The notes beneath the pieces were generated by a model. The model was given only the letters and a program-made list of their open reading frames with translations, was not told the origin of the DNA and did no database searches. This document shows, in pieces, positions 9,505 through 44,709 of a stretch of DNA of 56,954 nt. The DNA lies in NCBI GenBank assembly GCA_016790165.1, contig JAEUPL010000010.1, positions 1-56,954 of the forward strand, given 5' to 3'. Numbering within the stretch: the stretch's first letter is position 1; the number at the start of each line of letters is the position of its first letter. This DNA comes from Burkholderiales bacterium (GTDB lineage Bacteria > Pseudomonadota > Gammaproteobacteria > Burkholderiales > Casimicrobiaceae). The position numbers and the translations under genes are program-made.

Positions 9505-9686
9505 TCGCGCCGCCGCATCGGCTGCCATTACAGCTTTTCGCTGCTATCGGCGGCTGGTTGGTCGTTAGCGCCGATTTTTCCAGATAGTCGACATTAAGTA
9601 AGAACGCGCTGCATTGACCGTCGGCTGGTCGTTGGCGCTAAAAAGCCATTCACGAAGAACTTCGAAGCAGAGCACGGATACCGCGC
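9505..9686. other. Intergenic stretch between the restriction-modification gene and arsR
   Basis: This gap holds repeat copy A (9530-9646). No open frame with coding character was seen. The remaining bases up to 9686 lead into the arsR promoter. Confidence 0.6.
9530..9646 (+). repeat. Paired REP-like element, copy A
   Basis: The left unit begins ACAGCTTTTCGC and contains GGCTGGTTGGTCGTT. The right unit contains TTGACCGTCGGCTGGTCGTT and ends GGCGCTAAAAAGC. The two units are imperfect inverted copies. Between them is an AT-rich linker with ATAGTCGACATTA. Similar elements lie at 19349-19470, 32681-32801 and 44589-44709, so this is a dispersed family. This copy sits between the restriction-modification gene and the arsenic operon. 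Confidence 0.75.
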
Positions 9687-9718
9687 TTGACGTGTTCAAT
9701 AATTCGAGTATTATTGAA
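9687..9718 (+). promoter_or_regulatory. arsR promoter with overlapping ArsR-type operator
   Basis: TTGACG (9687-9692) and TATTAT (9709-9714) are separated by 16 bp. Overlapping them is an imperfect palindrome, TTCAATAAT-N-rich centre-TATTATTGAA (9695-9718), the AT-rich dyad expected of an ArsR-family operator. The ATG of arsR is at 9721, only 6 nt after the -10 box. If transcription starts at the usual distance, the mRNA would begin at or very near the start codon and have no leader. Repression by ArsR bound over the -10 would be released by As(III). Confidence 0.7.
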
Positions 9719-9720
9719 GC

Positions 9721-10074
9721 ATGGAAACAAACATCGCCGCTGCCACCCTCGCCGCCCTCGCCCAGCCCACGCGGCTGGAAATCTTTCGCGCACTGGTGGT
9801 GGCCGGGCCGGCTGGCCTCGCGGCTGGCGCGCTGGCCGAGCAACTGGCGGCCACGCCCTCGGTCCTGTCGTTTCACCTGAAGGAGCTGCGCTTCGCTGGC
9901 TTGGTGGACTCAGCCACGCAGGGCCGCTTTGTGATTTACCGGGCGCGCTTCGACACGATGACGGCGTTGCTCGGCTTTTTGACCGAAAACTGCTGCGCGC
10001 GCAGTAACCCGCAGGACGCATCCTGCTGTGTGCCCGACCTGGCCAGGAAGGCACCGCCCCTGAAATCATGCTGA
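9721..10074 (+). CDS. arsR: ArsR/SmtB-family arsenical-responsive repressor
   Basis: A 117-residue winged-helix repressor. The fold is recognisable from LAALAQPTRLEIFRAL (11-26) and the recognition helix region TPSVLSFHLKELRFAGLV (45-62). Cysteines lie at the C-terminal end: C91-C92, C102-C103 and C117. This resembles the Acidithiobacillus-type ArsR, where a C-terminal vicinal pair plus a third Cys bind As(III), rather than the E. coli type with cysteines in the DNA-binding helix. It heads arsI-arsC-aqpS. There is no Shine-Dalgarno before the ATG, in line with a leaderless transcript. Methylarsenite could also be an inducer, given the neighbouring arsI. Confidence 0.9.
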   Translation: METNIAAATLAALAQPTRLEIFRALVVAGPAGLAAGALAEQLAATPSVLSFHLKELRFAGLVDSATQGRFVIYRARFDTMTALLGFLTENCCARSNPQDASCCVPDLARKAPPLKSC

Positions 10075-10084
10075 AAGGACTCTC

Positions 10085-10582
10085 ATGAAACGCTTCCACG
10101 TTCACGTCGCGGTGGATGATCTGGCACAAAGCACGCGCTTCTACAACGCACTCTTTGGCGCCCCTCCGGCGGTTGAAAAGCCCGACTACGTCAAGTGGAT
10201 GCTGGACGACCCCCGCATCAACTTCGCGATCTCGGCGCGCGGCCAGCCGGCCGGCGTGAACCATCTTGGCTTGCAGGTGGAAAGCGACGACGAGCTCGCC
10301 GCACTCAAGGCGCAGCACAGCGCGGCGGCGCTCGCGCTGTTCGACGAGGGAAAAACCAGCTGCTGCTACGCCCACAGCCACAAGCACTGGCTGACCGACC
10401 CGCAGGGCGTGCCGTGGGAGGTGTATCACACGATGGGCGCGGTGCAGACGTTCAACGGCGAATCCGCACCCACGTGCGGTAGTGGCGACGCGACGAAAAC
10501 GGGCGGTTGCTGCGTGCCCGACGCCTCGCCCGCGAAAGCCGCACCGCTTGCCGGGGAGCGCGGCAAGGGCTGCTGTGCTTAA
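10085..10582 (+). CDS. arsI: ArsI-type C-As lyase / CadI-like VOC dioxygenase
   Basis: A 165-residue vicinal-oxygen-chelate protein. Likely metal ligands are H5 (FHVHVAV), H60 (VNHLGL) and E112 (PWEVYHT). The vicinal pair C93-C94 in KTSCCYAHSHKHW, with K100 nearby, is the methylarsenite-binding signature of ArsI, which splits the carbon-arsenic bond of trivalent organoarsenicals to give As(III). Family members named CadI share the fold. The C-terminal tail (after residue 120) is unusually cysteine-rich, with GGCCVPD and a terminal GCCA. AAAGGA precedes the ATG. The position directly after arsR supports an arsenic role. Confidence 0.87.
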   Translation: MKRFHVHVAVDDLAQSTRFYNALFGAPPAVEKPDYVKWMLDDPRINFAISARGQPAGVNHLGLQVESDDELAALKAQHSAAALALFDEGKTSCCYAHSHKHWLTDPQGVPWEVYHTMGAVQTFNGESAPTCGSGDATKTGGCCVPDASPAKAAPLAGERGKGCCA

Positions 10583-10600
10583 GCGCCGAGGCAAGAAGCC

Positions 10601-11107
10601 ATGAGCAACACTTACAACGTACTCTTTCTGTGCACCGGCAATTCCGCGCGCAGCGTGATGGCCGAGGCGCTGGTCACCGTGATCGGCGGCGGCCGCTTCG
10701 TCGGTTACAGCGCGGGTAGCCATCCGACCGGCCGCGTCAATCCATTCGCCGTGGAGCTGACCACGCAGATTGGCTATCCGGCCGAGCGCCTGCGCAGCAA
10801 GTCGTGGGACGAGTTCGCCGCCGCGAGCGCACCGCAGATGGACTTCATCATCACCGTCTGCGACAACGCCGCGGGAGAGGTGTGCCCGTATTGGCCCGGT
10901 CAGCCCACCACCGCACACTGGGGCTTTGCCGATCCGGCGGCGGTCAACGGCACGGACGAGGAAAAGCGGCACGCCTTCCGCCGCATCTTCAATGAAATCA
11001 CGCAGCGTGTGCGCGCGTTCGCCAGTCTGCCACTTGAGGCGCTGGATGCCCAATCGATGCAATCGGCCGTCCGCCAGATTGGCGAGTCGTCGACGGCTGC
11101 GGTATGA
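10601..11107 (+). CDS. arsC: Arsenate reductase, low-molecular-weight phosphatase type
   Basis: A 168-residue protein that reduces arsenate to arsenite. The phosphatase loop C11-x5-R17-S18 is seen in LCTGNSARSVMAEAL. Two further cysteines, C86 (TVCDNA) and C94 (EVCPYWPG), would form the disulfide relay of thioredoxin-coupled ArsC. WGFADP supplies the usual general-acid Asp. The sequence is closer to the Staphylococcus/Bacillus type than to the glutaredoxin-coupled E. coli ArsC. A ribosome-binding site (GAGGCAAGAAG) precedes the ATG. The stop overlaps the start of aqpS by 4 nt (ATGA). Confidence 0.92.
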   Translation: MSNTYNVLFLCTGNSARSVMAEALVTVIGGGRFVGYSAGSHPTGRVNPFAVELTTQIGYPAERLRSKSWDEFAAASAPQMDFIITVCDNAAGEVCPYWPGQPTTAHWGFADPAAVNGTDEEKRHAFRRIFNEITQRVRAFASLPLEALDAQSMQSAVRQIGESSTAAV

Positions 11108-11796
11108 GCGATGCGCTGACCGTGCCGCGCGCACTGGCAGCAGAGTTCCTTGGCCCCGCGCTGCTCGCCGGTGTGGTGGTCGGCAGCGGCATCCTGGCAG
11201 AACGTCTCGCCGCTGGAAATGCAGCCGTTGCGTTGCTGGGCAATACGCTCGCCACTGTCACTGCGTTGGGTGTGCTGATCGTGCTGTTCGGGCCGCTGTC
11301 GGGGGCGCATTTCAACCCCGCCGTCTCGCTGGTTTTCGCGCTGCGACGCGAGCTGGCCTGGCGGCGCGCTGCGGCCTTTGGCGCAACGCAGTTGATCGCG
11401 ATGACGCTGGGCGTCTGGATTGCCCACGCGATGTTCGAACAACCCGTGCTGCAATGGTCAAGCAAAGTGCGCGCCTCGTACGGCGAAATGCTGGGCGAGT
11501 TCGTGGCGACGTTCTGGTTGCTGCTCACCATTGTCGGCACGCGGGCGGCGCGGGCTGACTGGTCGGCGCTGACCGTGCCGGCGGCGATCGCGGCGGGGTA
11601 TTGGTTTACGTCGTCGACTTCGTTCGCCAATCCGGCCATCACGATTGCGCGGGCGCTGACCGACACCTTCTCCGGCGTTCGTCCCGCGGATGTAGTGCCT
11701 CTGGTCGCGGCCCAGATCCTGGGCGCACTGGCGGCGTCGGCGGTGAGCCGCAGACTGTTTGGATCGGGCACCGCGCCGACAGCGAGTCCGTTGTGA
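11104..11796 (+). CDS. aqpS: Aquaglyceroporin AqpS-like arsenite channel
   Basis: A 230-residue membrane protein of the MIP family with six predicted membrane spans and both pore motifs: NPA at 71-73 (GAHFNPAVS) and NPA at 176-178 (FANPAITIAR). Its translational coupling to arsC matches the Sinorhizobium meliloti arrangement, in which AqpS lets As(III) made inside the cell flow out down its gradient. No ArsB or Acr3 pump is present in the operon, so this channel is the only candidate arsenic exit in the window. The cargo is inferred from context; aquaporins of this type can also pass other uncharged solutes. Confidence 0.88.
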   Translation: MSDALTVPRALAAEFLGPALLAGVVVGSGILAERLAAGNAAVALLGNTLATVTALGVLIVLFGPLSGAHFNPAVSLVFALRRELAWRRAAAFGATQLIAMTLGVWIAHAMFEQPVLQWSSKVRASYGEMLGEFVATFWLLLTIVGTRAARADWSALTVPAAIAAGYWFTSSTSFANPAITIARALTDTFSGVRPADVVPLVAAQILGALAASAVSRRLFGSGTAPTASPL

Positions 11797-11813
11797 AATC
11801 GCTGGAGCTGCAA

Positions 11814-12929
11814 CTAGCCGCGCCGCTGCCACCGCCCGTCGGATAAGGTTTCGACCCTGCCTTCGAGTTCAAGCAGCGTGAGTTCGGTCATCACTTGCGC
11901 GACGGGCAGGCCGCTCCGTGCGACCAGCGTGTCGGCGTCGACCGGCGCATGCTCGATGTGAGCGAACACGCCAGCGTCGACGCCTGGCGAGGCCCGCTTC
12001 AAGTCGCCGTGAACAGGCAGGGCGGGTGGGGCATCCAGGCGCAACTCGTCCAGCACATCCTGCGCGGTTTCAACGAGCTTGGCGCCCTGCTTGATCAGGT
12101 GGTGGCAGCCCTTGTGAAACGTGGAGTGAATTGAGCCGGGAATCGCGAACACTTCGCGGCCCTGCTCGCCGGCCAGGCGTGCGGTGATGAGCGAGCCGGA
12201 ATTCATTGAGGCTTCCACCACCAGCACGCCGCGCGAGAGGCCGCTGATGACGCGATTTCGCTTGGGAAAGTTGCCCGCGTGTGGCGGCGTACCGAGCGGG
12301 TATTCGGAGAGCAGCAACCCACGCTCGGCGATGCTGTGGGTGAGCGCCTTGTTTCGGGCCGGATAGATGCGGTCAATGCCCGTGCCCACGACGGCAATCG
12401 TTGACCCTGCAGTGGCGCTCGTGGCGCGCAGCGCACCGGTGTGTGCGGCAGCATCAATACCCAGCGCGAGGCCCGAAACCACCGTGACGCCGCCCTCGCT
12501 GAAGGCCTGCGCAAATGCCTCGGCCGTATCGCTGCCGCCGGCCGAACAATTGCGTGAACCCACCATCGCGAGCGCAGGCCGCTGCAACAGCTCCAGCCGG
12601 CCTTTGGCGAACAGGATGATCGGCGCGTCGCCACTTTCCAGCAACGCCCTGGGGTACGCCGGGTGCGACCACGTCAGCAGATGCTGATCCGCGTGGGCAG
12701 CCAGCCACGTGAGTGACGCGTCAACGCGCTCGGCGATATCCACGTCGGGCGGCGCACTGAGACGACGAGCAATGGCTTCCCCAACGACCGGCGTCAGCGT
12801 CCCCACACTCGCCGAAAACACCGCTGCTGGTTCGCGCAAGGCGCTCAGCAGCGCATGTGCCGAGCGCGCACCGATGCCGGGCGTGAATGCCAGTCGCAGG
12901 AATTGCGCGTCATCAGTCGCAAGGGGCAC
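11814..12929 (-). CDS. dprA: DNA processing protein DprA
   Basis: A 371-residue protein that loads RecA onto incoming single-stranded DNA during natural transformation. The Rossmann-like DprA domain is clear: HPAYPRALLESGDAP, MVGSRNCSAGG, SGLALGIDAAAHTGAL, FPKRNRVISGLSRGVLVVE, and GSLITARLAGEQGREVFAIP. A C-terminal winged-helix-like part (about 310-371) begins near DADTLVARSGLPVAQVMTEL. An N-terminal SAM-like helical region precedes. The start is a GTG at 12929 with GGAG upstream. It lies downstream of the LysM gene and a terminator, in the order seen in many Burkholderiales. Confidence 0.96.
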   Translation of the reverse strand: MPLATDDAQFLRLAFTPGIGARSAHALLSALREPAAVFSASVGTLTPVVGEAIARRLSAPPDVDIAERVDASLTWLAAHADQHLLTWSHPAYPRALLESGDAPIILFAKGRLELLQRPALAMVGSRNCSAGGSDTAEAFAQAFSEGGVTVVSGLALGIDAAAHTGALRATSATAGSTIAVVGTGIDRIYPARNKALTHSIAERGLLLSEYPLGTPPHAGNFPKRNRVISGLSRGVLVVEASMNSGSLITARLAGEQGREVFAIPGSIHSTFHKGCHHLIKQGAKLVETAQDVLDELRLDAPPALPVHGDLKRASPGVDAGVFAHIEHAPVDADTLVARSGLPVAQVMTELTLLELEGRVETLSDGRWQRRG

Positions 12930-12963
12930 GGTCTGCTCCGGGTTGAATCGGCACGCATGGCGA

Positions 12964-12988
12964 GAAAAAGGGCACCCCGTGGGTGCCC
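12964..12988 (-). terminator. Rho-independent terminator of the LysM gene
   Basis: On the minus strand a perfect 8-bp stem (GGGCACCC / GGGTGCCC, 3-nt loop) is followed by a run of T (12964-12969 on the plus strand are A-rich). It lies just after the LysM gene stop at 13015 and before dprA, so dprA is probably expressed partly from its own start site or by read-through. Confidence 0.85.
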
Positions 12989-13014
12989 TCGTTCCGCGTC
13001 GCGCGGCGTGAATG

Positions 13015-14250
13015 TCAGGGATTGCGCACTGCGTAGCCAGGGCGCACGTTGTCCATGCCCGTATTCATGACGAGGCCATAGGCAATGCCATCGAACACGC
13101 GGAACACAAAAATCAATCCGATGCGCTCCTCGGGGATATCCAGTGTTTTCGGTTCGCTGCCGGCGACATAAGGCCAACCGGGCACCCAGTTCAAGGGCGA
13201 TTCCTTGAACCGCGGATTGGCAAAGGTCTCGACCGGTTTGAACACGGCGAGCACATGACCCACCTCAAGACCATGCCGCTTGCCGAGATTGAGCGTTACG
13301 ACATTGGTGCGCCCGGCCTCGGAGACACCGGCCGGCAACGTCATCACATTGCCTTGCACTTTTTGTTCCGGCGCCCGAGGCACGTAGGCGACGGTTTCCG
13401 GCGGGGAGGCCGGGATCAAGTAGTCGCCGATCTGGACTTCCTGCCGTGCCGAGACGATTTCGAGCCTGGCGACATCGCCGTCACGCTGCAATTTTGCGTC
13501 GCCGAGATACGTGGCTTCGTAGCCGATGATCTGCGGGTCGGGCGTGGCGTGATGCCATTTCCACCACGGGCGGGGAGCGATGGCCGGGTCGCGCAACTCG
13601 CGGCCCCTGCGGAAGATCTGGAACGTCTTGCCCATGGGGGGCTTCACGCCGACGGCATAAATCGCATCCAGCGTGGAGAACGCCACCCGCTCGCCGACCG
13701 ACTTGACGATCTGCGGTGCATCATCAAACGCCTCCGCGCCAATCACGCGGTTGCGCAGCATGAACGGCTCGATGTCTTCCGGGCGAATGCTGGGCACCGC
13801 CTGTGCCTCGCGCGCTTCAGCACGGATTTGCGGAGTCAACACCACGACAGGACGGTCACCGGGGCCGCTGCCGAGAATGGACAATCGTGGCCCACCGGGC
13901 GCATTGCGATCAAGCACGATAACCTGCCCCGGATAAATCCAGTGCGGATTGCGAATCTGGTCGCGATTGAGGCGCCAGACTTCGGGCCAGCGCCAAGGTT
14001 GCTTGAGGAATTTTCCGGAGATACCCCAGAGGGTGTCACCGCGAACCACGGTGTGACGATCCGGCGCGTTGTCGGCCACCTGCACCGGTGCAGTACTGGC
14101 CGGCGCGTCGACGGATTGTGCCAGCGCCTGTGGGGCGACCAACGACGCCGTCAACCCCAGGATCAGGCTGCAAACCAGCGCTGACCGCGCGGCCGCCGTT
14201 GGCAAAGGCAGGCGCGGTGACGTCTGGATCGTGGGTGGGTTCGTTAACAT
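13015..14250 (-). CDS. Exported LysM-domain protein
   Basis: A 411-residue protein with a signal peptide ending near APQALA|QS and one LysM motif (HTVVRGDTLWGISGKFLKQP, then WRWPEVWRLNRDQIRNPHWI and YPGQVIVL), the usual peptidoglycan-binding module. The remaining ~280 residues contain a conserved region found with LysM in betaproteobacteria, often annotated as LysM peptidoglycan-binding domain protein near dprA and def; its enzymatic role is unknown. I chose ATG 14250 because AGGAAACGG precedes it; an upstream in-frame start at 14277 is less likely. It diverges from def. Confidence 0.88.
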   Translation of the reverse strand: MLTNPPTIQTSPRLPLPTAAARSALVCSLILGLTASLVAPQALAQSVDAPASTAPVQVADNAPDRHTVVRGDTLWGISGKFLKQPWRWPEVWRLNRDQIRNPHWIYPGQVIVLDRNAPGGPRLSILGSGPGDRPVVVLTPQIRAEAREAQAVPSIRPEDIEPFMLRNRVIGAEAFDDAPQIVKSVGERVAFSTLDAIYAVGVKPPMGKTFQIFRRGRELRDPAIAPRPWWKWHHATPDPQIIGYEATYLGDAKLQRDGDVARLEIVSARQEVQIGDYLIPASPPETVAYVPRAPEQKVQGNVMTLPAGVSEAGRTNVVTLNLGKRHGLEVGHVLAVFKPVETFANPRFKESPLNWVPGWPYVAGSEPKTLDIPEERIGLIFVFRVFDGIAYGLVMNTGMDNVRPGYAVRNP

Positions 14251-14452
14251 TCCGTTTCCTGGCCGTGTTGGCAGCATGAGTCGACTCGGTGGGGCGGATA
14301 GCTCAGGGATATTCCCACGACATTGTCATGGCTCCGAAGCGCAGCATCGTGCGCGACGGGTCGTGGCAACGTCGCTGGAAACGACAGGTGTCGCCCCAAC
14401 CTTGAGAAATTACATGAAGATTGTGCAACCAGCCATCTGATTTGGCAAGTAA

Positions 14453-14962
14453 ATGGCGCTCCTACCCATCCTCGAATACCCCGATGCGCGGCTAAAACGC
14501 ATCGCCGCGCCCGTGACCGAGTTCACGCCCGCTCTCAGGAAGCTCGTCGACGACATGGCTGAAACCATGTACGAGGCGCCCGGCATCGGTCTGGCGGCGA
14601 CGCAGGTCGACGTGCACAAGCGTGTGATCGTGATTGACATCACGAAGGACAAAAGCGATCTCAAGGTCTTCGTCAATCCCGAAATTGTCGAAGCGGACGG
14701 CGAGATCGTGGGCGAAGAAGGCTGCCTGTCGGTGCCCGAGTACTACGACAACGTGCGGCGCGCCGCCCACATCAAGGTGCGCGCGCAGAACGCCGAGGGC
14801 ACGCCGTTCGAGCTGGAGGCAACCGAGTTGCTCGCCGTGTGCATCCAGCATGAAATGGATCACCTCAAGGGGGTCGTGTTTGTTGACCACCTTTCGCAGC
14901 TGAAACAAATGCGCGTGAAGACCAAAATGGTGAAGCGGCACCGCGAGCAGGCCCGGCGCTGA
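14453..14962 (+). CDS. def: Peptide deformylase
   Basis: A 169-residue metalloenzyme that removes the formyl group from new proteins. All three signature motifs are seen: GIGLAATQ, EGCLSVP (Cys metal ligand) and QHEMDHLKG (two His ligands and catalytic Glu). Length is normal. Its stop overlaps the fmt start (TGATG), so both steps of N-terminal formyl metabolism are made together. No strong Shine-Dalgarno precedes the ATG. Confidence 0.97.
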   Translation: MALLPILEYPDARLKRIAAPVTEFTPALRKLVDDMAETMYEAPGIGLAATQVDVHKRVIVIDITKDKSDLKVFVNPEIVEADGEIVGEEGCLSVPEYYDNVRRAAHIKVRAQNAEGTPFELEATELLAVCIQHEMDHLKGVVFVDHLSQLKQMRVKTKMVKRHREQARR

Positions 14963-15954
14963 TGCGCGTCGTCTTCGCGGGCACGCCGGAATTTGCCGCC
15001 GTGGCGCTACGAGCGCTGCTCGTGGTGCCGCGCGACGTCGCGCTCGAGGTGGTAGCGGTGTACACCCAACCGGATCGGCCGGCCGGGCGCGGCATGAAAC
15101 TCACCGCATCCGCAGTGAAGCAGGTAGCGAGCGCGCACGGCCTACCCGTGCTGCAGCCGCCCACGTTACGCACGCCCGAGGCACAGGCTGAATTGGCTGC
15201 GCTGGCGCCGGACGTGATGCTGGTGGCGGCGTATGGACTCATCCTGCCGCAGTCGGTGCTTGACATTCCTCGGCTGGGCTGCCTCAACATCCACGCCTCT
15301 CTCCTGCCGCGCTGGCGTGGGGCTGCCCCGATCCACCGCGCCATTCTGGCGGGCGACACCGAAAGCGGTGTTGCGATCATGCAGATGGAGGCTGGACTCG
15401 ACACCGGGCCGGTGCTCGCCGAGCGCCGCACGGCCATCGCAGCGCGGGAAACCACCGGGCAGTTGCACGACCGGATTGCCGCGCTGGGTGCAGAGGCTGC
15501 CGTCGACGTACTGCGCCGACTTGCGCGCGGTGAATCGCTGGTCGCAACGAATCAGCCTGTCGAGGGCGTGACATACGCGCACAAGATCACGCCGGAAGAA
15601 GCTCAAATCGACTGGTCCGCAAGTGCCGTTGAAATTGATCGAAAAATTCGCGCGTTCAACCCGGTGCCCGGCGCGTGGACCACGTGGCGCGGTGAAAAAC
15701 TGAAGCTTTGGGCAAGTGAGTTGGTTCACGTGCCGTCGTGCCTTGGCGGTGAGCCCGGGACGGTGCTCGCTTCGACACCTGCGGGCGTAGCGGGTGCGCG
15801 CGCGCCGTCACAATTGCTCGTGTCCTGTGCCGGGTCTGTGCTCGCGGTGACCGAGGCGCAGCGTGCTGGCGGCCGCCGCATGCCCGTGTCGGCATGGCTC
15901 ACCGGCAATGACCACCCGAATCCCGGCGAACGCTTCGGCCTGAGCGGCGACTGA
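14962..15954 (+). CDS. fmt: Methionyl-tRNA formyltransferase
   Basis: A 330-residue enzyme that formylates initiator Met-tRNA using 10-formyl-THF. It starts MRVVFAGTPEFAAVALRALL. The catalytic region has NIHASLLPRWRGAAPIHRAI (the Asn and His of the active site and the SLLPRWRGAAPI signature) and a following GVAIMQMEAGLDTGPV with the catalytic Asp. The C-terminal OB-like domain spans about 205-315. It overlaps def by one base. The product substrate pair (fmt/def) is typical of this locus. Confidence 0.97.
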   Translation: MRVVFAGTPEFAAVALRALLVVPRDVALEVVAVYTQPDRPAGRGMKLTASAVKQVASAHGLPVLQPPTLRTPEAQAELAALAPDVMLVAAYGLILPQSVLDIPRLGCLNIHASLLPRWRGAAPIHRAILAGDTESGVAIMQMEAGLDTGPVLAERRTAIAARETTGQLHDRIAALGAEAAVDVLRRLARGESLVATNQPVEGVTYAHKITPEEAQIDWSASAVEIDRKIRAFNPVPGAWTTWRGEKLKLWASELVHVPSCLGGEPGTVLASTPAGVAGARAPSQLLVSCAGSVLAVTEAQRAGGRRMPVSAWLTGNDHPNPGERFGLSGD

Positions 15955-15990
15955 TACCGCTCCGCCCGGTCACCGGTTGGCAGGGCTCAG

Positions 15991-16005
15991 ATTATTCGTA
16001 ATAAT
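15991..16005. promoter_or_regulatory. AT-rich perfect palindrome upstream of the BNR protein gene
   Basis: ATTATT-cgt-AATAAT is a perfect 6-bp inverted repeat in otherwise G+C-rich intergenic DNA, between fmt and the large secreted protein. It could be an operator or part of a promoter; the protein bound is unknown. Confidence 0.35.
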
Positions 16006-16139
16006 GCGGCACGCGATGTTGCAGCGATGTGCCGCGCCTTCTTCTTGTTCTTTGGAGTTGCCGGATGTGCGCACTGCAACATTCAGCTGTGGACGAACCA
16101 CTGGATCTGTACGCCACGCGCGGTCTCAAGGCAGCGCGG

Positions 16140-19202: not shown

Positions 19203-19258
19203 CGGTCGCCCGCGCCGGCGAACACCTCGCAAACGCCGGGCTGCGGTGAACCCTTAAC

Positions 19259-19280
19259 TAGGGCGTGTTAACACGCCCTA
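19259..19280. repeat. 22-bp perfect palindrome sharing 13 bp with the MITE flank at 44.9 kb
   Basis: The sequence is TAGGGCGTG-TTAA-CACGCCCTA, a perfect inverted repeat centred on TTAA. Its right half, TTAACACGCCCTA, recurs at 44929-44941, where it forms the right edge of the 170-bp palindromic element. It is also shortly after the stop of a plus-strand gene but has no T-run, so a terminator role is less likely. Confidence 0.6.
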
Positions 19281-19348
19281 ATTGCAGCTGCGACCGACGT
19301 GCCGCTCGCCGCGCCGCGCATGACGGTGAAGCGTGAACGGATGATCGC

Positions 19349-19470
19349 AACAGCTTTCACCCACAAGCGACCGGCCGTTGGTCGTTGTGGACATTCTTTT
19401 CCAATAGTCGATGTATAGGATTTTGCGCTTGCAGTGGCCGCCAGCAGGTCGTTGGCCGCAAAAAGCTGTT
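19349..19470 (+). repeat. Paired REP-like element, copy B
   Basis: The ends are AACAGCTTT and AAAGCTGTT, a perfect terminal inverted match. The left unit has GCGACCGGCCGTTGGTCGTT, a GACC/GGTC hairpin. The right unit has GGCCGCCAGCAGGTCGTTGG. The linker holds CCAATAGTCGATGTATA, matching copy A's AGTCGA core on the same strand. It lies between two convergent genes. Confidence 0.75.
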
Positions 19471-32677: not shown

Positions 32678-32680
32678 GAC

Positions 32681-32801
32681 AACAACTTTTCAGCCTCTGC
32701 GGCGACTGATTGGTCGTCGAAACGCTATTTTTTGAAAAGTCGACTTGGAAAAAATATCGCCTAAGTGACCGCCTGGCAGCCGTTACGGACGAAAAGCTGT
32801 T
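32681..32801 (+). repeat. Paired REP-like element, copy C
   Basis: It begins four bases after the glycerate kinase stop. The left unit begins AACAACTTTTCAGC and contains GCGACTGATTGGTCGTC. The right unit contains GTGACCGCCTGGCAGCCGTT and ends GAAAAGCTGTT. The linker holds TTGAAAAGTCGACTTGG. The element is the same length and orientation as the other copies but is the most diverged. Confidence 0.7.
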
Positions 32802-34677: not shown

Positions 34678-34690
34678 GGCGTGACTAAGC

Positions 34691-35737: not shown

Positions 35738-35746
35738 GATGGCCGC

Positions 35747-37341: not shown

Positions 37342-38822
37342 GCCGCACTCCCGTCCAGACCACGCTGCACCATCTCGGCAGCGCGCAGCACCGAACGCAC
37401 CTTTTGTAGCGTTTCTTCCCATTCCTTGCTGGGTACCGAGTCATGCACAATGCCGGCACCGGCCTGGGCGTAGAGCTTGCCGTTTTGAATCACGGCAGTG
37501 CGGATGGCGATGCACATGTCCATGTCGCCCTGATAGCTCATGTAACCCACCGCGCCGCCGTAGATGTTTCGTTTGACCGGCTCGACTTCGTGGATGATCT
37601 CAAGCGCGCGAATCTTCGGTGCGCCGGAGAGTGTGCCCGCCGGAAACGTTGCGCGCAGTACGTCAATATTGTGGGTGCCGGGCTTCAGCGTGCCCTCCAC
37701 GTTACTCACGATGTGCATGACGTGCGAATAGCGCTCGATGATCATCTTGTCCTTGACCACCACGCTCCCGGTCGTGGCGATGCGGCCCACATCGTTGCGG
37801 CCGAGGTCAATCAGCATCACATGCTCGGCCACTTCCTTCTCGTCGGATAGCAGATCTTCGGCCAGCGCATCGTCTTCCTCACGGGTGGCGCCGCGCTTGC
37901 GGGTGCCGGCGATCGGGCGTACGGTCACCGTCTCGCCCTCCTTGCGCACCAGAATCTCTGGCGACGCGCCGACGACGTGAAAGTCGCCGAAGTGATAGAA
38001 AAACATGTACGGTGACGGGTTCAGCGTGCGTAGCGCCCGGTACAGTGAGATCGGCGGCTCGGGGAAGTCCATCACCATGCGTTGCGACGGCACCACCTGC
38101 ATGCAGTCACCCGCCGCGATGTAGTCCTTGCACACCTTCACCGCGGCTTCGTAGGCGGTTTGGCCCATCTGCGATTCGGCGTTGACCACTGTCGTCGCGT
38201 GCTGCAACGGCAGCTTCGCCGGTTCACGCAGCTTGGCGCGCAGCTCGGCCAGGCGTTCGGTTGCGCGCTGGAAAGCATCCGGCTTTGACGGATCAGCGTA
38301 GACGATCAGCGAGATGGTGCTGGAAAGGTTGTCGACGACGGCCAGCTCTTCGGTCAACAGCAGCAGGATGTCGGGCACGCCCAGTTGATCGGGCTTCGGG
38401 TGCTTCTGGGCGAACAGTCCGAGGCGCGGCTCGATGTAGTGTGCTGTCTCAAATCCGAAGTAACCCGTCAGCCCGCCAGCAAAACGGGGCAGGCCAGGGA
38501 CAGTCGCCACCTTGAACTGCGCCTGAAAGGCCGCGATGTAGTCGAGCGGGTCGGCGACGGTCTGCTTATTTGGCCCGAGCGGCGTGATGTGCGTCACCTC
38601 ATTGCCACGCACTTCGATGCGGGTGCGGGTGCGCAGGCCGATGAAGCTGTAGCGACCAAAGCGCTCACCGCCCACCACCGATTCGAGCAGGAAGGTGTAG
38701 CGATCGTTGGCGAGCTTGAGGTAAATCGACAGTGGCGTGTCGAGGTCAGCGAGCGTCTGTTCGACGAGCGGGATGCGGGTGAAGCCTTGCTGAGCGAGCT
38801 TCAGGAATTCTTGTTCGGTCAT
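37338..38822 (-). CDS. trpE: Anthranilate synthase component I
   Basis: A 494-residue chorismate-utilising enzyme. The N-terminal regulatory part has [20 protein letters not shown], close to the tryptophan-binding LLES motif. The C-terminal catalytic domain has [49 protein letters not shown], and [20 protein letters not shown]. It is the first structural gene after the trpL leader. Feedback inhibition by Trp is expected from the LLES motif. Confidence 0.97.
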
Positions 38823-38883
38823 GATGCAACATGCTCCGGAGGGGAGTGATCACAAGGGATCAGGTTCAGGGTCAGTTCTTGTT

Positions 38884-38975
38884 GTTGCGGCATCCGGAGG
38901 ACTCCAGACGCATGCGCTCGCAACCAGCGCAAAGCAATATTGGCAGGCTAACGCCACCAACCTCCAGAGCTTTGC
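38884..38975 (-). promoter_or_regulatory. Putative trp attenuator with alternative stems
   Basis: Minus-strand RNA can form a 41-nt hairpin at 38924-38884 (GTTGCG/CGCAAC, GCAT/ATGC, CTGG/CCGG). The sequence TCTGGAGG inside the leader peptide gene (38968-38961), between its two Trp pairs, can instead pair over 8 bp with CCTCCGGA (38900-38893) in that hairpin. GCAAAGC (38975-38969) can pair with GCTTTGC (38935-38929). No T-run follows the hairpin, so the terminator may be Rho-dependent or the effect translational. Confidence 0.6.
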
Positions 38976-39001
38976 CACCAGGAACGGACCGAGAGGAACA
39001 T
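38948..39001 (-). CDS. trpL: trp leader peptide
   Basis: A 17-residue frame, MFLSVRSWWQSSGGWWR, lies between gph and trpE, 125 nt upstream of trpE. Four of 17 residues are Trp, in two tandem pairs, which is far beyond chance and typical of ribosome-stalling leaders that sense charged tRNA-Trp. It stops at TAG (38948-38950). Its ribosome-binding site is weak (GGAAA some distance upstream). Too short for usual gene finders. Confidence 0.85.
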   Translation of the reverse strand: MFLSVRSWWQSSGGWWR

Positions 39002-39033
39002 GTTGTGTGTGCTTGGTTTCCGACGACCGCCAG

Positions 39034-39705
39034 TCAAGTGAGCAGCGGAACGATGTCCGTAAATGTATCCACGATTGCGTTGGCGCGCAAATCGGCCAGG
39101 TTTTCGCCCTCGCTGTAGCCGTAGGTCAACAGCACCACCGGCGAACCGGCCGCCTGCGCGGCGCGGCTATCGTTACCGGAGTCGCCAATCATCAGCATCT
39201 GTGCTGGATGCACGCGATGCTGGCCCGCCGACCAGAAAATCATGCCGGGGTCGGGCTTGTTGGTCGCCAGCATGTCACCGCACACGATGTGGTCGAAGTA
39301 CTGCGTGAGGTTGAAGTGCTTGAGCAGCGCCTCGCTGTACGTCGTCCACTTGTTGGTGACGACCGACAGCGTGAGCCCGCGTTCGCGGAACGCGTCCAGC
39401 CCGTCGATCACGCCGGGATAGATCGACGTGTTGTCGGCAATGTGCTCGAAGTAGAACTGGCGATACAGCATCAGCGCGTGTTCCAGCTCGGCATCGCTCG
39501 GCTCGCGCCGCAACACATGGCGCAGCGATTTGCCCACGTGCGCCATCAGCCCCTTGCCCACGAACGTCTTCACCAACTCTATCGGCAACGGCTCATGGCC
39601 CATCTCGTCCAGCACCAGATTGACCGATGCGCAAAGATCAGGGATGGTGTCGAGCAGCGTGCCGTCGAGATCGATGGCGATGGCTTTGATGTGATGCAGA
39701 CTCAT
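39034..39705 (-). CDS. gph: Phosphoglycolate phosphatase
   Basis: A 223-residue HAD-superfamily hydrolase that removes phosphate from 2-phosphoglycolate. Motif I is [15 protein letters not shown], with the nucleophile and general-acid Asp. Motif II is [19 protein letters not shown]. The final motif is [19 protein letters not shown]. It overlaps rpe by 4 nt. The rpe-gph-trpE order is standard in betaproteobacteria. Confidence 0.95.
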
Positions 39706-40373
39706 GCGCTAGCCAACGCCTTGCGCATATCGGCAATCGCCGCCGCGTAGTCCTTGGCGCCGTAAACCGCACTACCGGCCACAAATGTGTCAGCGCCCGC
39801 GGCCGCCACCTTCGCAATGTTGTCGGCCTTGATACCGCCGTCGACTTCGAGCATGATTTGCCTGCCGGACGCGTCGATGCGCCGCCGCACCTCGGCAATT
39901 TTGGGTAGCACGCCGTCGATGAACTTCTGTCCACCAAAGCCCGGGTTCACGCTCATGATGAGCACGAGATCGAGCTTGTCGAGCGTGTAGTCGAGATATG
40001 AAAGCGGCGTCGCCGGATTGAATACGAGGCCGGGCTTGCAGCCGCAGTCGCGGATCAGTGCGATGGTGCGGTCGATGTGTTCGCTCGCCTCGGGGTGAAA
40101 GCTGATGATGTTGGCGCCCGCCTTGGCGAATTCCGGGATGATCGCATCGACCGGCTTCACCATCAGGTGCACGTCGATGGGCGTGTTGCCAACGTGCGGT
40201 TTGATGGCGCTGCACACCATTGGCCCGATGGTGAGGTTGGGCACGTAATGGTTGTCCATCACGTCGAAGTGGATGAGATCGGCACCGGCCGCGATCACGG
40301 CGCGCACTTCGTCGCCGAGGCGTGCGAAGTCTGCCGAAAGAATCGAGGGTGCAATCTGGTAGTTGCGAGACAA
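39702..40373 (-). CDS. rpe: Ribulose-phosphate 3-epimerase
   Basis: A 223-residue TIM-barrel enzyme of the pentose phosphate pathway. [37 protein letters not shown] and [20 protein letters not shown] are complete, with the metal-binding His and Asp residues. I chose the TTG at 40373, preceded by GGGG, because the family normally starts M-S-R; another TTG at 40385 is in frame. It diverges from apaG. Confidence 0.93.
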
Positions 40374-40428
40374 TTCGCGCCCCAATCGAATTTATGCTGG
40401 ACGTTGGTCCGGCAGGGACACCGCAGCA

Positions 40429-40803
40429 GTGAGCCGCTACAGCATCAAGGTTGATCCGACCCCATTTTACTTGGCCGATCAGAGCGATCCGGCTAACGAC
40501 CAGTATGTGTTCGCGTACCACATCCGCATCGAAAACGTGGGCGAGGTGGCGGTGCAGTTGCTATCGCGACACTGGATGATCACTGATGCTGACGGCAAGG
40601 TGGAAGAAGTGCGCGGCGCCGGTGTGGTGGGTCAACAGCCGAAGCTGGCACCCGGCGAATCCTACGAATACACCAGCGGCTCACAGTTCAAGACGCCCGT
40701 GGGCACCATGCAGGGCAGCTACCAGTTTATCGCCGACGACGGCGTGAAGTTCGAGGCGCCGATCCCCAGGTTCGTGCTCTCAGCAAAGCGGGTGCTTCAC
40801 TGA
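40429..40803 (+). CDS. apaG: ApaG protein
   Basis: A 124-residue beta-sandwich protein (DUF525). YVFAYHIRIENVGEVAVQLL, SRHWMITDADGKVEEVRGAG, VVGQQPKLAPGESYEYTSGS and MQGSYQF are all present. Its biochemical role is unknown in bacteria, though linked to metal and polyphosphate stress. The start is a GTG at 40429. It converges with the small membrane protein gene, overlapping its end by 7 nt. Confidence 0.95.
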   Translation: MSRYSIKVDPTPFYLADQSDPANDQYVFAYHIRIENVGEVAVQLLSRHWMITDADGKVEEVRGAGVVGQQPKLAPGESYEYTSGSQFKTPVGTMQGSYQFIADDGVKFEAPIPRFVLSAKRVLH

Positions 40804-40970
40804 CGTTTCTCGTCGGCCGCGTCTGCCGCGCGGCGGGCGGCTTCGTCGTAGTCGCGCAGCTTCTTGTTGCGGTCCGCGGCGCCGCGCACGATCCACCAGA
40901 TGAGCGCGGCGAACATGGCGCCGGCGCCGAGGGTTTCGAGCAGGAAAATCCAGAGTCCGCTTTCAATCAT
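40797..40970 (-). CDS. Small single-span membrane protein of unknown function
   Basis: A 57-residue frame, starting MIESGLWIFLLETLGAGAMF. Residues 5-28 form one membrane helix; the rest is a charged, Ala-rich helix (NKKLRDYDEAARRAADAADE). It starts 23 bp after the GDPD stop on the same strand, so it may belong to that operon. Similar small proteins occur in betaproteobacteria beside apaG; no function is known to me. Confidence 0.65.
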   Translation of the reverse strand: MIESGLWIFLLETLGAGAMFAALIWWIVRGAADRNKKLRDYDEAARRAADAADEKRQ

Positions 40971-40993
40971 TGCAAGTTCAGCCGGGGTTGTAT

Positions 40994-41986
40994 TTATCGA
41001 GCTGGGTAGCGCGCCGGGACGGTCATGCCCCGCCGCTCGAGCAATGCGCGCAGGCGGTCCGGATAGTCGCTGATCAGGCCGTCGACCTGCCAGTCGAGCA
41101 GGCGGGCCATGTCCGCCTCGTCGTTGACCGTCCACGGAATGATTTTCAGGCCCAGCGTGTGCGCTTCGTTCACGAGGGCAGCGGTCACGTCCTTGAAGTT
41201 GGGCGACCAGACGGTGCCGCCAGCGGCCTTGACCGTGCGCGGCGTTGAGCCGCCGTGGTCGTCAACATCGAAGCCTGCAAGCCACGGCGACGCCCCCGGC
41301 TTGCCCACCTGCACCGTGTCACCCGCGCCCTGCTGGCTGGTGAGGAACACGGTCACAATCTCCGGCGCTTCTTTTTGCGCGATCAGCAAGGTGCGCCAGT
41401 CGAACGATTGAATCGTCGCTCGAGCGGCGAGCCCGGCGCCGCGAATCTCGGCGATCAACGCGCGGACAAACGGCTCGGCGGCGACCGCTTCTTCGGGCAC
41501 CAGCGGTGAAATTTTGGTTTCGATGTTGAAGCGCACGGCGCTGGCGCCGCGTTTCGCGACGAGATCGAACAGGGCGCGAAGTGTGGGAATGCGTTCGCCG
41601 TCCACCCCCAGCTGCGTGGCGAACGCCCGCGCGTAGGCGCTGCCGGGCTTGATGCGTCCGACGTCATACCCCTGCAGGTCAGCGAAATTCACGGTCGCGA
41701 TCACCGGGCCGCGTTCGTTCAGAAATTGGCCGTCGCCGCGCCGGGTGATATCCGGGTTCAGGTAGCGGTCGTGCGAGATCACCACCACGCCATCGCGCGT
41801 GATGCCTACGTCCAGCTCCAGCGTGCTGACGCCAATGTCGAGCGCCTTGCCGAATGCGGCGAGGGTGTTTTCTGGTGCCAAACCGCGGGCACCCCGGTGC
41901 CCCTGCAGGTCGAAGCGCGTGGCGCAGCCACCCAGCAGGCACAATGCGGCGAGTGCTGGCGCGAGCCAGCGCGTGGAAGTCGTCAT
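40994..41986 (-). CDS. Glycerophosphodiester phosphodiesterase lipoprotein
   Basis: A 330-residue enzyme hydrolysing glycerophosphodiesters to glycerol 3-phosphate and an alcohol. A lipobox LGGC (residues 18-21) marks it as a lipoprotein. The active-site core is GHRGARGLAPENTLAAFGKA with STLELDVGITRDGVVVISHD (catalytic His, Glu, Asp and second His). It is the periplasmic GlpQ-like type by location. The start overlaps the antiporter stop by 4 nt. Confidence 0.92.
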   Translation of the reverse strand: MTTSTRWLAPALAALCLLGGCATRFDLQGHRGARGLAPENTLAAFGKALDIGVSTLELDVGITRDGVVVISHDRYLNPDITRRGDGQFLNERGPVIATVNFADLQGYDVGRIKPGSAYARAFATQLGVDGERIPTLRALFDLVAKRGASAVRFNIETKISPLVPEEAVAAEPFVRALIAEIRGAGLAARATIQSFDWRTLLIAQKEAPEIVTVFLTSQQGAGDTVQVGKPGASPWLAGFDVDDHGGSTPRTVKAAGGTVWSPNFKDVTAALVNEAHTLGLKIIPWTVNDEADMARLLDWQVDGLISDYPDRLRALLERRGMTVPARYPAR

Positions 41987-43818
41987 GACGTGCTTTCCTT
42001 GCTTGTGCTCGCCACCGCCAACTCGGGTGATTGACGATCGCTGCGGCCATCGAGTGCCGCGTCTTCGCGCAGGATGCTATCGAGCTCGGCGCGCGCCGTT
42101 TTTGCCAGAGCGATGAGCTGCGCTTCATCGCGAAACACGGCCTGCGCGCGATCCAGCATTTCATGGTCGTGCTCAACAAACGTGGTGAGTGTGCGCTCGA
42201 TACGTTCGTCGGGTTCGCCCAGGTCGCGCAATACGTGCCGCGCCAGCTCGACACTGCCGGCAAACGTCTCGCGAATTGGCGCAGTGACGCCGAGCTCACG
42301 CAACTCCATCAGGTGCACGCGATTGCGCGCTCGGGCGAGGATTTTCACTCCCGGAAAATGCTGTCGCACCAGTCGCACAATCGCGAGCGAGGCCTGCACG
42401 TCATCCACACAGACCACAAACAGCGCCGCATCGGCCGTTTTCGCGGCGCGCAGCAGATCAAGTCGCGTCGCGTCGCCGTAGTAAATCTTGTTGCCGAAGC
42501 GACGGATGGAATCCACATGATCCGGGCTCGCGTCGACGGCGGTAAAGCGAATCTGCCGCATGTTGAGCACGCGACCGACGATTTGCCCGACGCGACCAAA
42601 GCCGGCGATGATCACCGGCGTGCCGGGGTCATCGATGCGATCAAACGGTGGCGGTTCGTCGTCCTTCACAAAGTGCGGCACCAGCACGCGATCATTCAGG
42701 ACCCACAGCAGCGGCGCGAGCACCATCGTGAGCACCACCGCAAGCGCGATCACTTCACTTTCCTCTGCGGAAATCAGCTTTGCTGACTGCGCCGCACTGA
42801 GCAGCACGAACGCGAATTCGCCACCGACTGCGAGCGCCAGCGCCGCAGGCCGCGCCAGCCGGTCTGGTGCCCGCGTCACCCAGCGTCGCACCGCGTAAAA
42901 CACACCGGCCTTGATCGCCAGAATCGCCACCGCCAGCCCCAGCATCGCCACGGGCGCCCGACGCAGCAAATCGAGGTTCACCCCCATGCCGACGGCCATG
43001 AAGAAAAGGCCGAGCAACAACGATTCGAACGGCTCGATGCTCGCCTCCAGTTGATGCCGGAATTGCGAGTCGGCCAGCAGCACGCCGGCGACAAACGCGC
43101 CCAACGTGGCGGAAAGACCGACCTGCGTCATGAGCCAGGCCAGGCCGACGGTGGTGAGCAGTGCCGCGGCGGTGAAAATTTCGTGCGATCCGCATTTCGA
43201 CGCGAACTTGAAGAGCAGCGAGAGCAGTGGCCGGCCCAGAAGCGCCACCCCGACCACCGCCGCCAATGCGGGCCAGCCAATGGTCTGAGCCTGCGCGCTG
43301 CTGCCCGTGGCGGCAGCCAGCACGCCAACCAACGCCAGCACCGGAATCACGCTCAAATCCTGGAACAACAACACCGAGAACGCTTCACGCCCGTGTTCGC
43401 TATCGGTTTCGCCACGTTCGGCGAGCGCGGGCAGCGCAAAGGCTGTGGAGGTCATGGCCAGCGCGATGCCAACAATGAGCGCGCCAGCGGGCCGCAGGTT
43501 GGCCCACCACGCGAGCGCGGCGAGCGCCGCGCTGCACACCAGCAGGTGTAACGCGCCGACGCCGAAGATCGAGCGCCGCAGCGCCCAGAGCCGTTCACGC
43601 TGCAACTCAAGACCGATCAGGAACATCAGCAGCGTCACGCCGAACTCCGCGGTCTGCAGCACGGTTTCAGGTTCATGCACGACGCCGAACACGGACGGCC
43701 CGACCAGCACACCCGCCACGAGATAGCCGAGCACTGAGCCCAGGCCCGCCTTCTTGAACAGCGGCACCAGCAGCACTGCGCCGCCCAGCAGCGCGGCGGC
43801 CGTAGCGAGCGACGTCAC
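41983..43818 (-). CDS. Kef-type cation/proton antiporter with RCK domain
   Basis: A 611-residue CPA2 antiporter. The N-terminal ~380 residues form a membrane domain of about twelve spans, with LGYLVAGVLVGPSVFGVV and GVTLLMFLIGLELQRERLW. A TrkA-N/RCK domain follows (about 400-530), with the Rossmann motif PVIIAGFGRVGQIVGRVLN. This matches KefB/KefC, which exchange potassium for protons, usually under glutathione-adduct control. The start is a GTG (43818) in the last of three tandem copies of a ribosome-binding-site/start module. Confidence 0.9.
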   Translation of the reverse strand: MTSLATAAALLGGAVLLVPLFKKAGLGSVLGYLVAGVLVGPSVFGVVHEPETVLQTAEFGVTLLMFLIGLELQRERLWALRRSIFGVGALHLLVCSAALAALAWWANLRPAGALIVGIALAMTSTAFALPALAERGETDSEHGREAFSVLLFQDLSVIPVLALVGVLAAATGSSAQAQTIGWPALAAVVGVALLGRPLLSLLFKFASKCGSHEIFTAAALLTTVGLAWLMTQVGLSATLGAFVAGVLLADSQFRHQLEASIEPFESLLLGLFFMAVGMGVNLDLLRRAPVAMLGLAVAILAIKAGVFYAVRRWVTRAPDRLARPAALALAVGGEFAFVLLSAAQSAKLISAEESEVIALAVVLTMVLAPLLWVLNDRVLVPHFVKDDEPPPFDRIDDPGTPVIIAGFGRVGQIVGRVLNMRQIRFTAVDASPDHVDSIRRFGNKIYYGDATRLDLLRAAKTADAALFVVCVDDVQASLAIVRLVRQHFPGVKILARARNRVHLMELRELGVTAPIRETFAGSVELARHVLRDLGEPDERIERTLTTFVEHDHEMLDRAQAVFRDEAQLIALAKTARAELDSILREDAALDGRSDRQSPELAVASTSKESTS

Positions 43819-43880
43819 GCGGTCACCTCCGCGAGCGACGTCACGCGGTCACCTCCGCGAGCGACGTCACGCGCCCACCT
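43805..43880 (-). repeat. Tandem triplication of a ribosome-binding-site/start-codon module
   Basis: A 26-bp unit (43805-43830) is repeated exactly at 43831-43856, with a partial third copy from 43857. Read on the minus strand, each full unit is GGAGGTGACCGC, then GTG-ACG-TCG-CTC-GC: a strong Shine-Dalgarno followed by a GTG start. Because 26 is not a multiple of three, the starts are in different frames. Only the GTG at 43818 begins the antiporter. The copy furthest upstream overlaps the pth stop. Confidence 0.9.
43815..43870 (-). other. Two coupled 9-codon minicistrons ahead of the antiporter gene
   Basis: From the GTG at 43870 the frame reads MTSLAEVTA and stops at a TGA that overlaps the GTG at 43844. 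That GTG gives the same MTSLAEVTA and stops at a TGA overlapping the antiporter GTG at 43818. Ribosomes leaving pth could thus be relayed through both. The second and the antiporter start are each preceded by GGAGGTGA. Whether they are translated is inference. Confidence 0.55.
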
Positions 43881-44526
43881 TCGCTGTCGGCGTGGGCGCC
43901 GAGCCAGACGCCTTGGGCCTCGTGTGCAGGTGCTTCACGGCATCCTCGGTATCGCCCGTAGCGAGGTAGGCCCACTGCGCGAGGGCGCGTTCAACGGCGA
44001 CCTCGATGGCGTCCTGCTCCTCGCGACGCGGCCGTTGCAGCACCCAGTCCGCCACCGGTTGTTGCGGGTTGGCGCTGTCGCGCGGATGGCCGATGCCGAT
44101 GCGCAGACGCCAGTAGTCGCCGGACCCGAGTTTGGCCTGAATGTCGCGCAGGCCATTGTGTCCGGCGTGGCCCCCGCCAAACTTGAGCTTCACGTCGCCA
44201 GCCGCGAGATCGAGCTCATCATGCGCCACCAGAATTTCCGGCGGTGTGATGGCGAAAAACTTTGCGACGGCTGCCACGCTTTGTCCGGAAAGATTCATGA
44301 AAGTCTGCGGCATCAGCACCCGCACGTCGCTTGCCGAGCCTGTGCCGCGTGCCAGCAGGCCGAAGAATTTCTTCTCGCTCGCGAAACGGCCACCGACCTC
44401 GTGCGCCACATCCTCGGCAAACCAGAAGCCAGCGTTGTGCCGCGTGCGTTCGTACTCCGGCCCGGGATTGCCGAGCCCGACGACGAGTTTGATGGGCAGC
44501 TTTGGAAAACTCACAGCGAAACGCAA
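43867..44526 (-). CDS. pth: Peptidyl-tRNA hydrolase
   Basis: A 219-residue enzyme that recycles peptidyl-tRNA. Active-site residues N20 and H30 lie in VVGLGNPGPEYERTRHNAGF, and the catalytic Asp in LVAHDELDLAAG. FGGGHAGHNGLRDI is complete. Numbering runs ten higher than in E. coli Pth, so the N-terminus is slightly long or the true start lies a little downstream. The stop overlaps a GTG of the repeated start module. Confidence 0.96.
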   Translation of the reverse strand: MRFAVSFPKLPIKLVVGLGNPGPEYERTRHNAGFWFAEDVAHEVGGRFASEKKFFGLLARGTGSASDVRVLMPQTFMNLSGQSVAAVAKFFAITPPEILVAHDELDLAAGDVKLKFGGGHAGHNGLRDIQAKLGSGDYWRLRIGIGHPRDSANPQQPVADWVLQRPRREEQDAIEVAVERALAQWAYLATGDTEDAVKHLHTRPKASGSAPTPTAKVGA

Positions 44527-44588
44527 AGTCAGATCTGCGCCGCAGTGTACCCGCGCCCCTGCGCGGCGCAGCCGACCGATCTTTCGCT

Positions 44589-44709
44589 ACAACTTTTTAG
44601 TTCGAGCGACCAGCCAACGGTCGCTGCGAGCGAATTTTGAGAAAAATCGACTTATTGTCAAATTAAGCTGTAACGACCGTCGACTGGTGGTTGCATGCAA
44701 AAAGTTGCA
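44589..44709 (+). repeat. Paired REP-like element, copy D
   Basis: The left unit begins ACAACTTTTTAG and contains GCGACCAGCCAACGGTCGCT. The right unit contains ACGACCGTCGACTGGTGGTT and ends GCAAAAAGTTGC. The left unit and the reverse complement of the right unit agree closely over about 36 bp. The linker holds GAAAAATCGACTTATTG. It is the copy with the best-preserved arms. Confidence 0.78.

Follow-up and report, generated by a model that had tools for sequence, protein, structure and literature searches.

Four copies of one dyad-symmetric element

The question raised by the window examined here, that is, the whole stretch of 56,954 nucleotides that forms contig 39 of the source genome (G000; 3.76 Mb in 41 contigs), is what kind of element recurs at four of its sites. 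A sequence-only reading had pointed to these four copies, and all of them are present, in frames of 122, 122, 121 and 122 bp. Their positions in the window, together with the boxes of copy 1 and the cores, are as follows.

9529..9650, unstranded: element copy 1, 122-bp frame, nhmmer E 5.3e-24; tandem genes on either side, about 26 bp past the stop of an MmeI-like gene
9531..9538, plus strand: left end box CAGCTTTT of copy 1, columns 3-10, from conserved columns; its inverted partner lies at 9641-9648
9587..9592, unstranded: central GTCGAC of copy 1, frame columns 59-64, from sequence and alignment
19349..19470, unstranded: element copy 2, 122-bp frame, nhmmer E 8.3e-24; convergent genes on either side (gene caller of our own script)
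19407..19412, unstranded: core of copy 2, GTCGAT
32681..32801, unstranded: element copy 3, 121 bp, short by one base, nhmmer E 2.5e-18; 4 bp past a glycerate kinase gene
32739..32744, unstranded: core of copy 3, GTCGAC
44588..44709, unstranded: element copy 4, 122-bp frame, nhmmer E 1.8e-24; divergent genes on either side (gene caller of our own script)
44646..44651, unstranded: core of copy 4, ATCGAC

The 17-copy training alignment took in copies 1, 2 and 4 and left out copy 3, so that the E-value of copy 3 is independent. When contigs 18 and 39 (415 kb) were searched at E<=1, all matches had E<=6.5e-9, and copies and background are therefore cleanly apart in those 415 kb.

The plan read previously from the sequence, a unit followed by an AT-rich linker and the inverted unit, proved right, with the addition that the linker is itself symmetric around AAGTCGACTT; the element is therefore one dyad of about 120 bp. 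A symmetric frame of 122 columns emerges when the copies are aligned with their own reverse complements, and it runs from the end box CAGCTTTT through a box pair (A.CGACC / CGGTCGTT) and an A+T tract to the core AAGTCGACTT, followed by the mirror image. What the copies represent is thus a single dyad-symmetric site of 120 bp with GTCGAC at its centre, and not a pair of REP hairpins. A second dialect has different inner and outer boxes (GGGGCT and variants) and the same ends and core as dialect 1; between species groups the boxes change, while the ends, the core and the helical rhythm described below stay.

Copy number and phylogenetic distribution

Further copies were found elsewhere in the source genome, which speaks for the dispersed family that the sequence-only reading had seen. 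A model built from the 17 sequences gave at least 150 matches there, mostly near full length, many of which are the two strands of one copy, and BLAST with copy 4 as query found 41 matches (E<=10) in the same genome, with most of the 30 fetched lying in recognisable copies and a few not. In a sample of 1.46 Mb (contigs 18, 39, 1, 15 and 6, the first 220 kb of contig 7 and 180 kb of contig 9) we counted 104 copies, one per 14 kb, which by extrapolation corresponds to about 270 copies per genome, probably a few hundred. Contig 82 of a congener, G008, holds 19 copies in 166 kb.

The distribution of the family is narrow. The model detected it in 11 of 30 genomes, all of the same genus, and a dialect-independent pattern composed of ends and core gave element-like matches in 11 of 17 genus members, ranging from 2 (G009) to about 100 (G015) per genome, and none in three genomes outside the genus; two one-strand pattern matches in G014, unlike elements, were left out of the count, and the reversed-pattern control gave 0 matches across those 20 genomes. 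By this pattern six of the 17 congeners are without the element, and its function is therefore not essential to the genus. At the level of the order, 3 of 399 genomes (158 genera) match, all of them genus members, seven of which were in the sample; at the level of the class, the source genome and one single-strand match elsewhere were found among 369 genomes, where the reversed control gave seven matches. A strict dialect-1 pattern applied to 84,980 species genomes, a collection that possibly does not contain the source genome itself, retrieved two metagenome-assembled genomes only, JAKPSO01 and JAGNQL01, which match G003 and G008. The element was thus not found outside its genus in the bacterial samples searched. 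One IMG/VR contig carries one copy, of the other dialect; a phage origin was considered and set aside, given that single copy and the Pfam result for ten of the contig's open reading frames, which consisted of two DUFs only. A literature search by title and abstract returned no publication describing this 120-bp repeat.

Pairing of the arms and RNA structure

It had also been claimed from the sequence that the arms diverge while keeping their pairing, and the larger set of copies does not support this: across 60 copies of the source genome, 32.4 of 61 pairs of the whole dyad form within a copy, against 32.75 when copies are shuffled. The local hairpins behave alike, with 5.28 of 8 pairs against 5.14 shuffled on the left and 4.90 of 8 against 4.96 on the right. 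A contrary lean was seen for the left hairpin, where 4 of 1000 shuffles reached the value of 14 copies of G003 and 18 of 1000 that of the pooled set, as well as for dyad columns 11-18 in 35 copies of G008 (16 of 500), columns that lean the opposite way in the source genome. Hairpin pairing therefore shows no clear constraint, apart from the weak left-hairpin signals.

These values bear on the idea that the element is a transcribed RNA or a bidirectional terminator, which would suit both its near-palindromic sequence and the copies that lie directly past stop codons. A search of Rfam at the gathering threshold, covering the window and eight loci, found nothing at the element, its sole match being a cobalamin riboswitch elsewhere in the window; RNAalifold gave -5.4 kcal/mol, and of its 14 pairs one is compensatory; and pairing stays at or close to the shuffled level. 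Judged from sequence, a role as terminator appears unlikely because a conserved hairpin is absent, and an RNA-level function of either kind would be very surprising.

Length, helical-turn insertions and A+T rhythm

The length of the element is fixed to a high degree. In the source genome, 94 of the 104 copies have no net indel, seven are short by one base, one is long by one, one carries +10 and one partial copy +5; in the parts of G008 that were sampled, 58 of 65 have no net indel, four are short by one and the others carry +10, +11 and +21. The alignments of those copies, with extra loci from the source genome and G003, contain eight insertions of at least 2 bp, seven of which are 10 or 11 bp long (the +21 counts as two of them, one of each length), while the eighth, of 5 bp, is that of the partial copy. 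They are located between the end box and the outer box or between the inner box and the core, with one put inside the outer box by the aligner.

We also scanned ten genomes with a pattern in which one half could be lengthened by 3 to 26 bp. This gave 46 matches, against 4 for the reversed-pattern control, with a total length of 123-126 in 25, 131-136 in 13 and elsewhere in 8; three of the 46 overlap normal-length copies, a few look like chance and two are copies already present in the insertion alignments. In the source genome, where a normal copy measures 115, eight of nine matches are exactly 125 (+10), the remaining one overlapping with a copy of normal length. Normal copies measure 113-115 in the other species, and the length classes there therefore correspond to about +8 to +13 and +16 to +23; the second class (131-136) is accordingly a loose one, and counts against a whole-turn reading.

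The A+T content of the element follows a near-helical rhythm as well, with a best period of about 9.75 bp in the source genome, in G008 and in two length classes of dialect 2, a periodicity reached by 2, 17, 0 and 0 of 2000 column permutations, respectively. Peaks lie near columns 8, 18, 38, 49 and 57 in the source genome and, in its own numbering, near 7, 16, 25-28, 36, 47 and 55 in dialect 2, where part of the rhythm arises because the copies were picked by ends and core.

Genomic position and spacing

With genes called by our own hexamer script, and no standard caller, 109 of 110 copies on five contigs of the source genome and four of G008 are intergenic. Copies of the source genome lie, at the median, 21 bp from a stop codon and 109 bp from a start codon. 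An element is present there in 25 of 67 convergent gaps, as compared with 75 of the 447 gaps of other orientation (p 2e-4), and a slight depletion is seen for divergent gaps, with 23 of 157 as compared with 77 of 357 (p 0.07).

Copies in the source genome are spaced more regularly than chance placement would give. They lie about 13 kb apart on average and rarely under 4 kb; the 97 intervals have a coefficient of variation of 0.617, and 3 of the 97 are under 3 kb, where uniform placement would give 19 and an orientation-matched null a mean of 16.7. This evenness was reached by 0 of 3000 simulations of the orientation-matched null. In G008 the same tendency is weak: 5 of its 32 intervals fall below 3 kb where 9.2 would be expected, a result matched by 83 of 2000 simulations, and the coefficient of variation is not significant.

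Divergence of the copies

The best pair among 60 gapless copies of the source genome is 72% identical, so that near-identical members of the MITE kind are absent from these 60; a MITE-like 160-bp repeat of the same genome has four copies at 92-96%, copies that were chosen by exact 15-bp ends, which favours intact ones. Thirteen gapless pairs of copies lie beside at least one orthologous gene, both flanks having the same genes in only three of the 13, and in these pairs spacer identity is 32% (standard error 3) against 28% in random pairs, and identity of box columns 75% against 73%. Spacers are therefore near saturation, while the boxes and the length hold. Homogenisation by copying was considered and rejected, as copies found next to the same gene resemble each other hardly more than random copies do. 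In the four cases viewed for empty sites, intergenic DNA of the source genome and of G008 or G003 is too diverged for alignment at the level of bases.

Where neighbouring genes are adjacent both in the source genome and in G008 or G003, an element is present in both in 3 of 4 element gaps, and 0 of 202 element-free gene sides of the first comparison set have an element in the source genome; all these synteny counts refer to gene pairs with orthologues in the sampled contigs.

A proposed DNA-wrapping architectural site as the best explanation

The fixed length despite deep divergence, the insertions of about whole turns, the near-helical A+T rhythm and the lack of clear pairing together point to a DNA-wrapping complex, and even spacing at the ends of transcription units points to chromosome architecture. 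Our best explanation, to which we give about as much credence as doubt, is that the element is a helically phased, DNA-wrapping nucleoprotein site, most likely an anchor of chromosome architecture bound by a putative protein. A two-fold symmetric complex of that protein would assemble on the double-stranded site, with the approximately 120 bp of DNA (about 11 turns) bent or wrapped around it and three types of box arranged in mirror symmetry, namely the end CAGCTTTT, an inverted pair varying by species group and the core AAGTCGACTT. We propose that spacers, free in sequence, change in length mostly by zero or by whole turns because the boxes must share one face of the helix. Probably a few hundred such complexes would then stand just past stop codons at even distances, and they could serve as architectural anchors of the chromosome, for example as supercoil-domain boundaries or sinks between transcription units. 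Several observations count against this explanation, among them the weak spacing signal of G008, the synteny breaks at elements, the six congeners without the element and the approximately 97 bits of symmetrised information in the element, which are more than a mere bending signal requires; our searches also found no binding protein for it.

The supercoil domains of bacteria, about 10 kb in size, are generally regarded as lacking fixed borders set by sequence. We advance more tentatively, and with doubt prevailing, the broader proposal that this genus evolved sequence-defined domain markers: a few hundred 120-bp wrapping sites at the ends of transcription units, whose distances of about 10-15 kb would be regulated, possibly by selection for spacing, whose geometry is kept while spacers turn over, and whose box dialects may co-evolve with the putative protein. 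Regular, genome-wide, helically phased sites would offer a direct handle on hard-wired supercoil domains in bacteria, and the box dialects across congeners constitute a natural experiment toward finding the protein.

Recombination, gyrase and passive mobility as alternatives

Synteny breaks at elements keep recombination or mobility with target immunity a serious rival, in which an enzyme would act on the dyad, segments would move between elements, and immunity, or deletion between close copies, would produce even spacing; we regard it as rather unlikely, though well ahead of the other alternatives. Of the 15 element gaps 9 are breaks, as compared with 6 of the 46 gaps that measure at least 100 bp and contain no element (p 0.0007) and with 1 of 71 short gaps, a pattern that fits recombination at least as well as architecture, with the reservation that gaps between transcription units are places where breaks are expected anyway. 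Single loci tell a similar story. On contig 82 of G008, segments of 2.7 kb and 3.4 kb each lie between a pair of elements, and the 2.7-kb segment with its two elements corresponds to one element on contig 15 of the source genome; one element of G003 joins a left flank matching C18:60712 of the source genome (a short match of 135 bp) to a right flank matching C2:42174, the flanks of two different elements there; and on contig 281 of G008 both partner genes keep their same-side element in the source genome, beside other neighbours. Resolvase res sites also obey whole-turn spacing rules, and the congeners in which serine recombinases turned up all carry the element (3 of 5 element-bearing genomes, 0 of 4 without it). 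The frames of these recombinases, however, range widely in length, from 199 to 681 aa, and no serine recombinase match was obtained in the element-bearing G012 and G015. Near-identical copies such as those of the MITE-like repeat are missing among the 60 compared. Of the 33 predicted proteins encoded by the segments that separate close copies, one is transposase-like and the others, on inspection by eye, seem ordinary, so that a cassette reading was set aside as well. Should the elements be recombination sites after all, they would amount to a dispersed system of unusual density, with an influence on gene order.

The other two readings concern an existing enzyme and an inert repeat. If the elements were strong sites for DNA gyrase or another type II topoisomerase, they would remove positive supercoils after transcription units, and the bias towards convergent 3' ends, like the size, symmetry and A+T oscillation of the element, would suit such a role. 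Among published geometries that we met, the gyrase motif of E. coli comes closest; it is symmetric and about 130 bp long, with a 36-bp centre, two 47-bp arms and a GC oscillation of 10.75 bp, and gyrase binds BIME-2 (PMC6379681). That motif is degenerate and has the longer period (PMC6379681). The boxes of the element, by contrast, are sharp and differ from one species group to another, and its period is 9.75, not 10.75 bp. Its occurrence in one genus only, as far as the samples searched show, is likewise hard to reconcile with this reading, which we consider improbable. Gyrase itself is universal. An old and decayed passive mobile repeat of the REPIN, BIME or MITE kind appears less probable still. 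The sequence-only reading had favoured a BIME or MITE family over a terminator or operator; the dispersed, intergenic character of the family stands, as does the rejection of a single-locus operator, whereas the assignment to REP-like elements, BIMEs or MITEs is not supported, given the lack of a clear pairing constraint and of near-identical pairs, a Y1 gene that lies apart, over-regular spacing in the source genome and helical-turn insertions, which point to a protein-DNA geometry. Many intergenic copies close to 3' ends, as known for REPs (PMC3733652), and positions partly common to the species and partly not, would agree with a passive repeat. Decay, on the other hand, would leave indels and fragments, and what we observe is a retained length and no intermediate-scoring copies in the 415 kb of contigs 18 and 39. 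REPINs, moreover, carry compensatory changes and are scattered at random over extragenic DNA (PMC3116915), unlike an element whose pairing is not clearly conserved and whose spacing is over-regular.

Candidate partner proteins

No family of recombinases or transposases tested, whether Y1, tyrosine or serine, tracks the element cleanly. The sequence-only reading had suggested looking for a RAYT (Y1) partner. The Y1 gene of RAYT type at C7:97470 has its nearest element 6.8 kb or more away, the Y1 matches on contig 12 have theirs 3 kb off among the matches listed, and Y1 genes are present in the element-free congeners G002, G007, G010, G011 and G014. The gene is thus unflanked by elements and its presence does not follow theirs across congeners; with no element within 6 kb of the Y1 gene on contig 7, a RAYT link was rejected. 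As regards tyrosine recombinases, each of the six genomes compared has XerC- and XerD-like proteins (BLAST groups, with the XerC-like protein of G016 left aside), and these proteins are accordingly general. The gene of an integron-type integrase in the source genome, at C6:1233-2288, stops about 55 bp short of an element; the integrase is present also in the element-free G007 and was not found in the element-bearing G012, where three weaker matches were left out. As the integron-type integrase does not co-occur with the element, tyrosine recombinases were set aside, and this distribution also speaks against recombination.

Comparison with known systems

Among described repeats, the REPIN, an inverted REP doublet moved by RAYT, resembles the element in having inverted units round a spacer, a similar size, hundreds of copies per genome and an intergenic location (PMC3116915). 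The element differs from it in the absence of a clear pairing constraint and of near-identical copies among 60, in the Y1 gene of contig 7 that does not adjoin it, in its even spacing and in its helical-turn insertions; of the GTAG or CGTC tag that marks the foot of a REP hairpin, no GTAG was seen in the consensus by eye. The BIME-1 (RIB or RIP), associated with IHF, and the gyrase-related BIME-2 of enterobacteria are likewise intergenic palindromic repeats 3' of genes with a proposed architectural role, from which the element is distinguished by its single 120-bp dyad, three mirrored boxes, regular spacing and occurrence in one genus only, and by the fact that no REP consensus was recognised by eye.

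An integron attC site was rejected as an equivalent, since the copies are dispersed at about 13-kb spacing and form no array, and the integron-type integrase does not co-occur with them. The res site of the Tn3 family, which is about 114-120 bp long, has several dyad subsites and follows a whole-turn spacing rule, is like the element in all three respects; the element differs in its many dispersed copies and in the two element-bearing congeners, G012 and G015, where a serine recombinase was not found. Dispersed chromosomal sites read by one architectural protein are represented by the short matS, SlmA and Noc sites, and compared with these short and fewer sites the element is far longer, at 120 bp, and is present in probably a few hundred copies.

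Genomic surroundings of the element

Three further features were located in the window, including a MITE-like repeat:

6526-9504, MmeI-like restriction-modification protein, 992 aa, single-gene
44768-44927, MITE-like repeat, 160 bp, ends GAAACGCTGAACAAG / CTTGTTCAGCGTTTC
54464-54728, cobalamin riboswitch on the minus strand, bit score 80.8

Across the sampled contigs, the four full copies of the 160-bp MITE-like repeat, chosen by exact 15-bp ends and hence biased toward intact copies, share 92-96% identity, and two of the four have a 120-bp element at a centre-to-centre distance of at most 200 bp. The longest interval without elements that we observed spans 45 kb in contig C47 of the congener G008 (~8-53.5 kb), with a GC content similar to that of the contig itself.

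The second dialect, a variant of the element in other congeners, was found in one copy on a 12.5-kb IMG/VR contig (L258:8843-8957); a Pfam search with ten of the contig's ORFs returned two DUFs as the sole matches. In the window's own genome, an element lies ~55 bp past the end of an integron-type tyrosine recombinase gene (L228; G000 C6:1233-2288).
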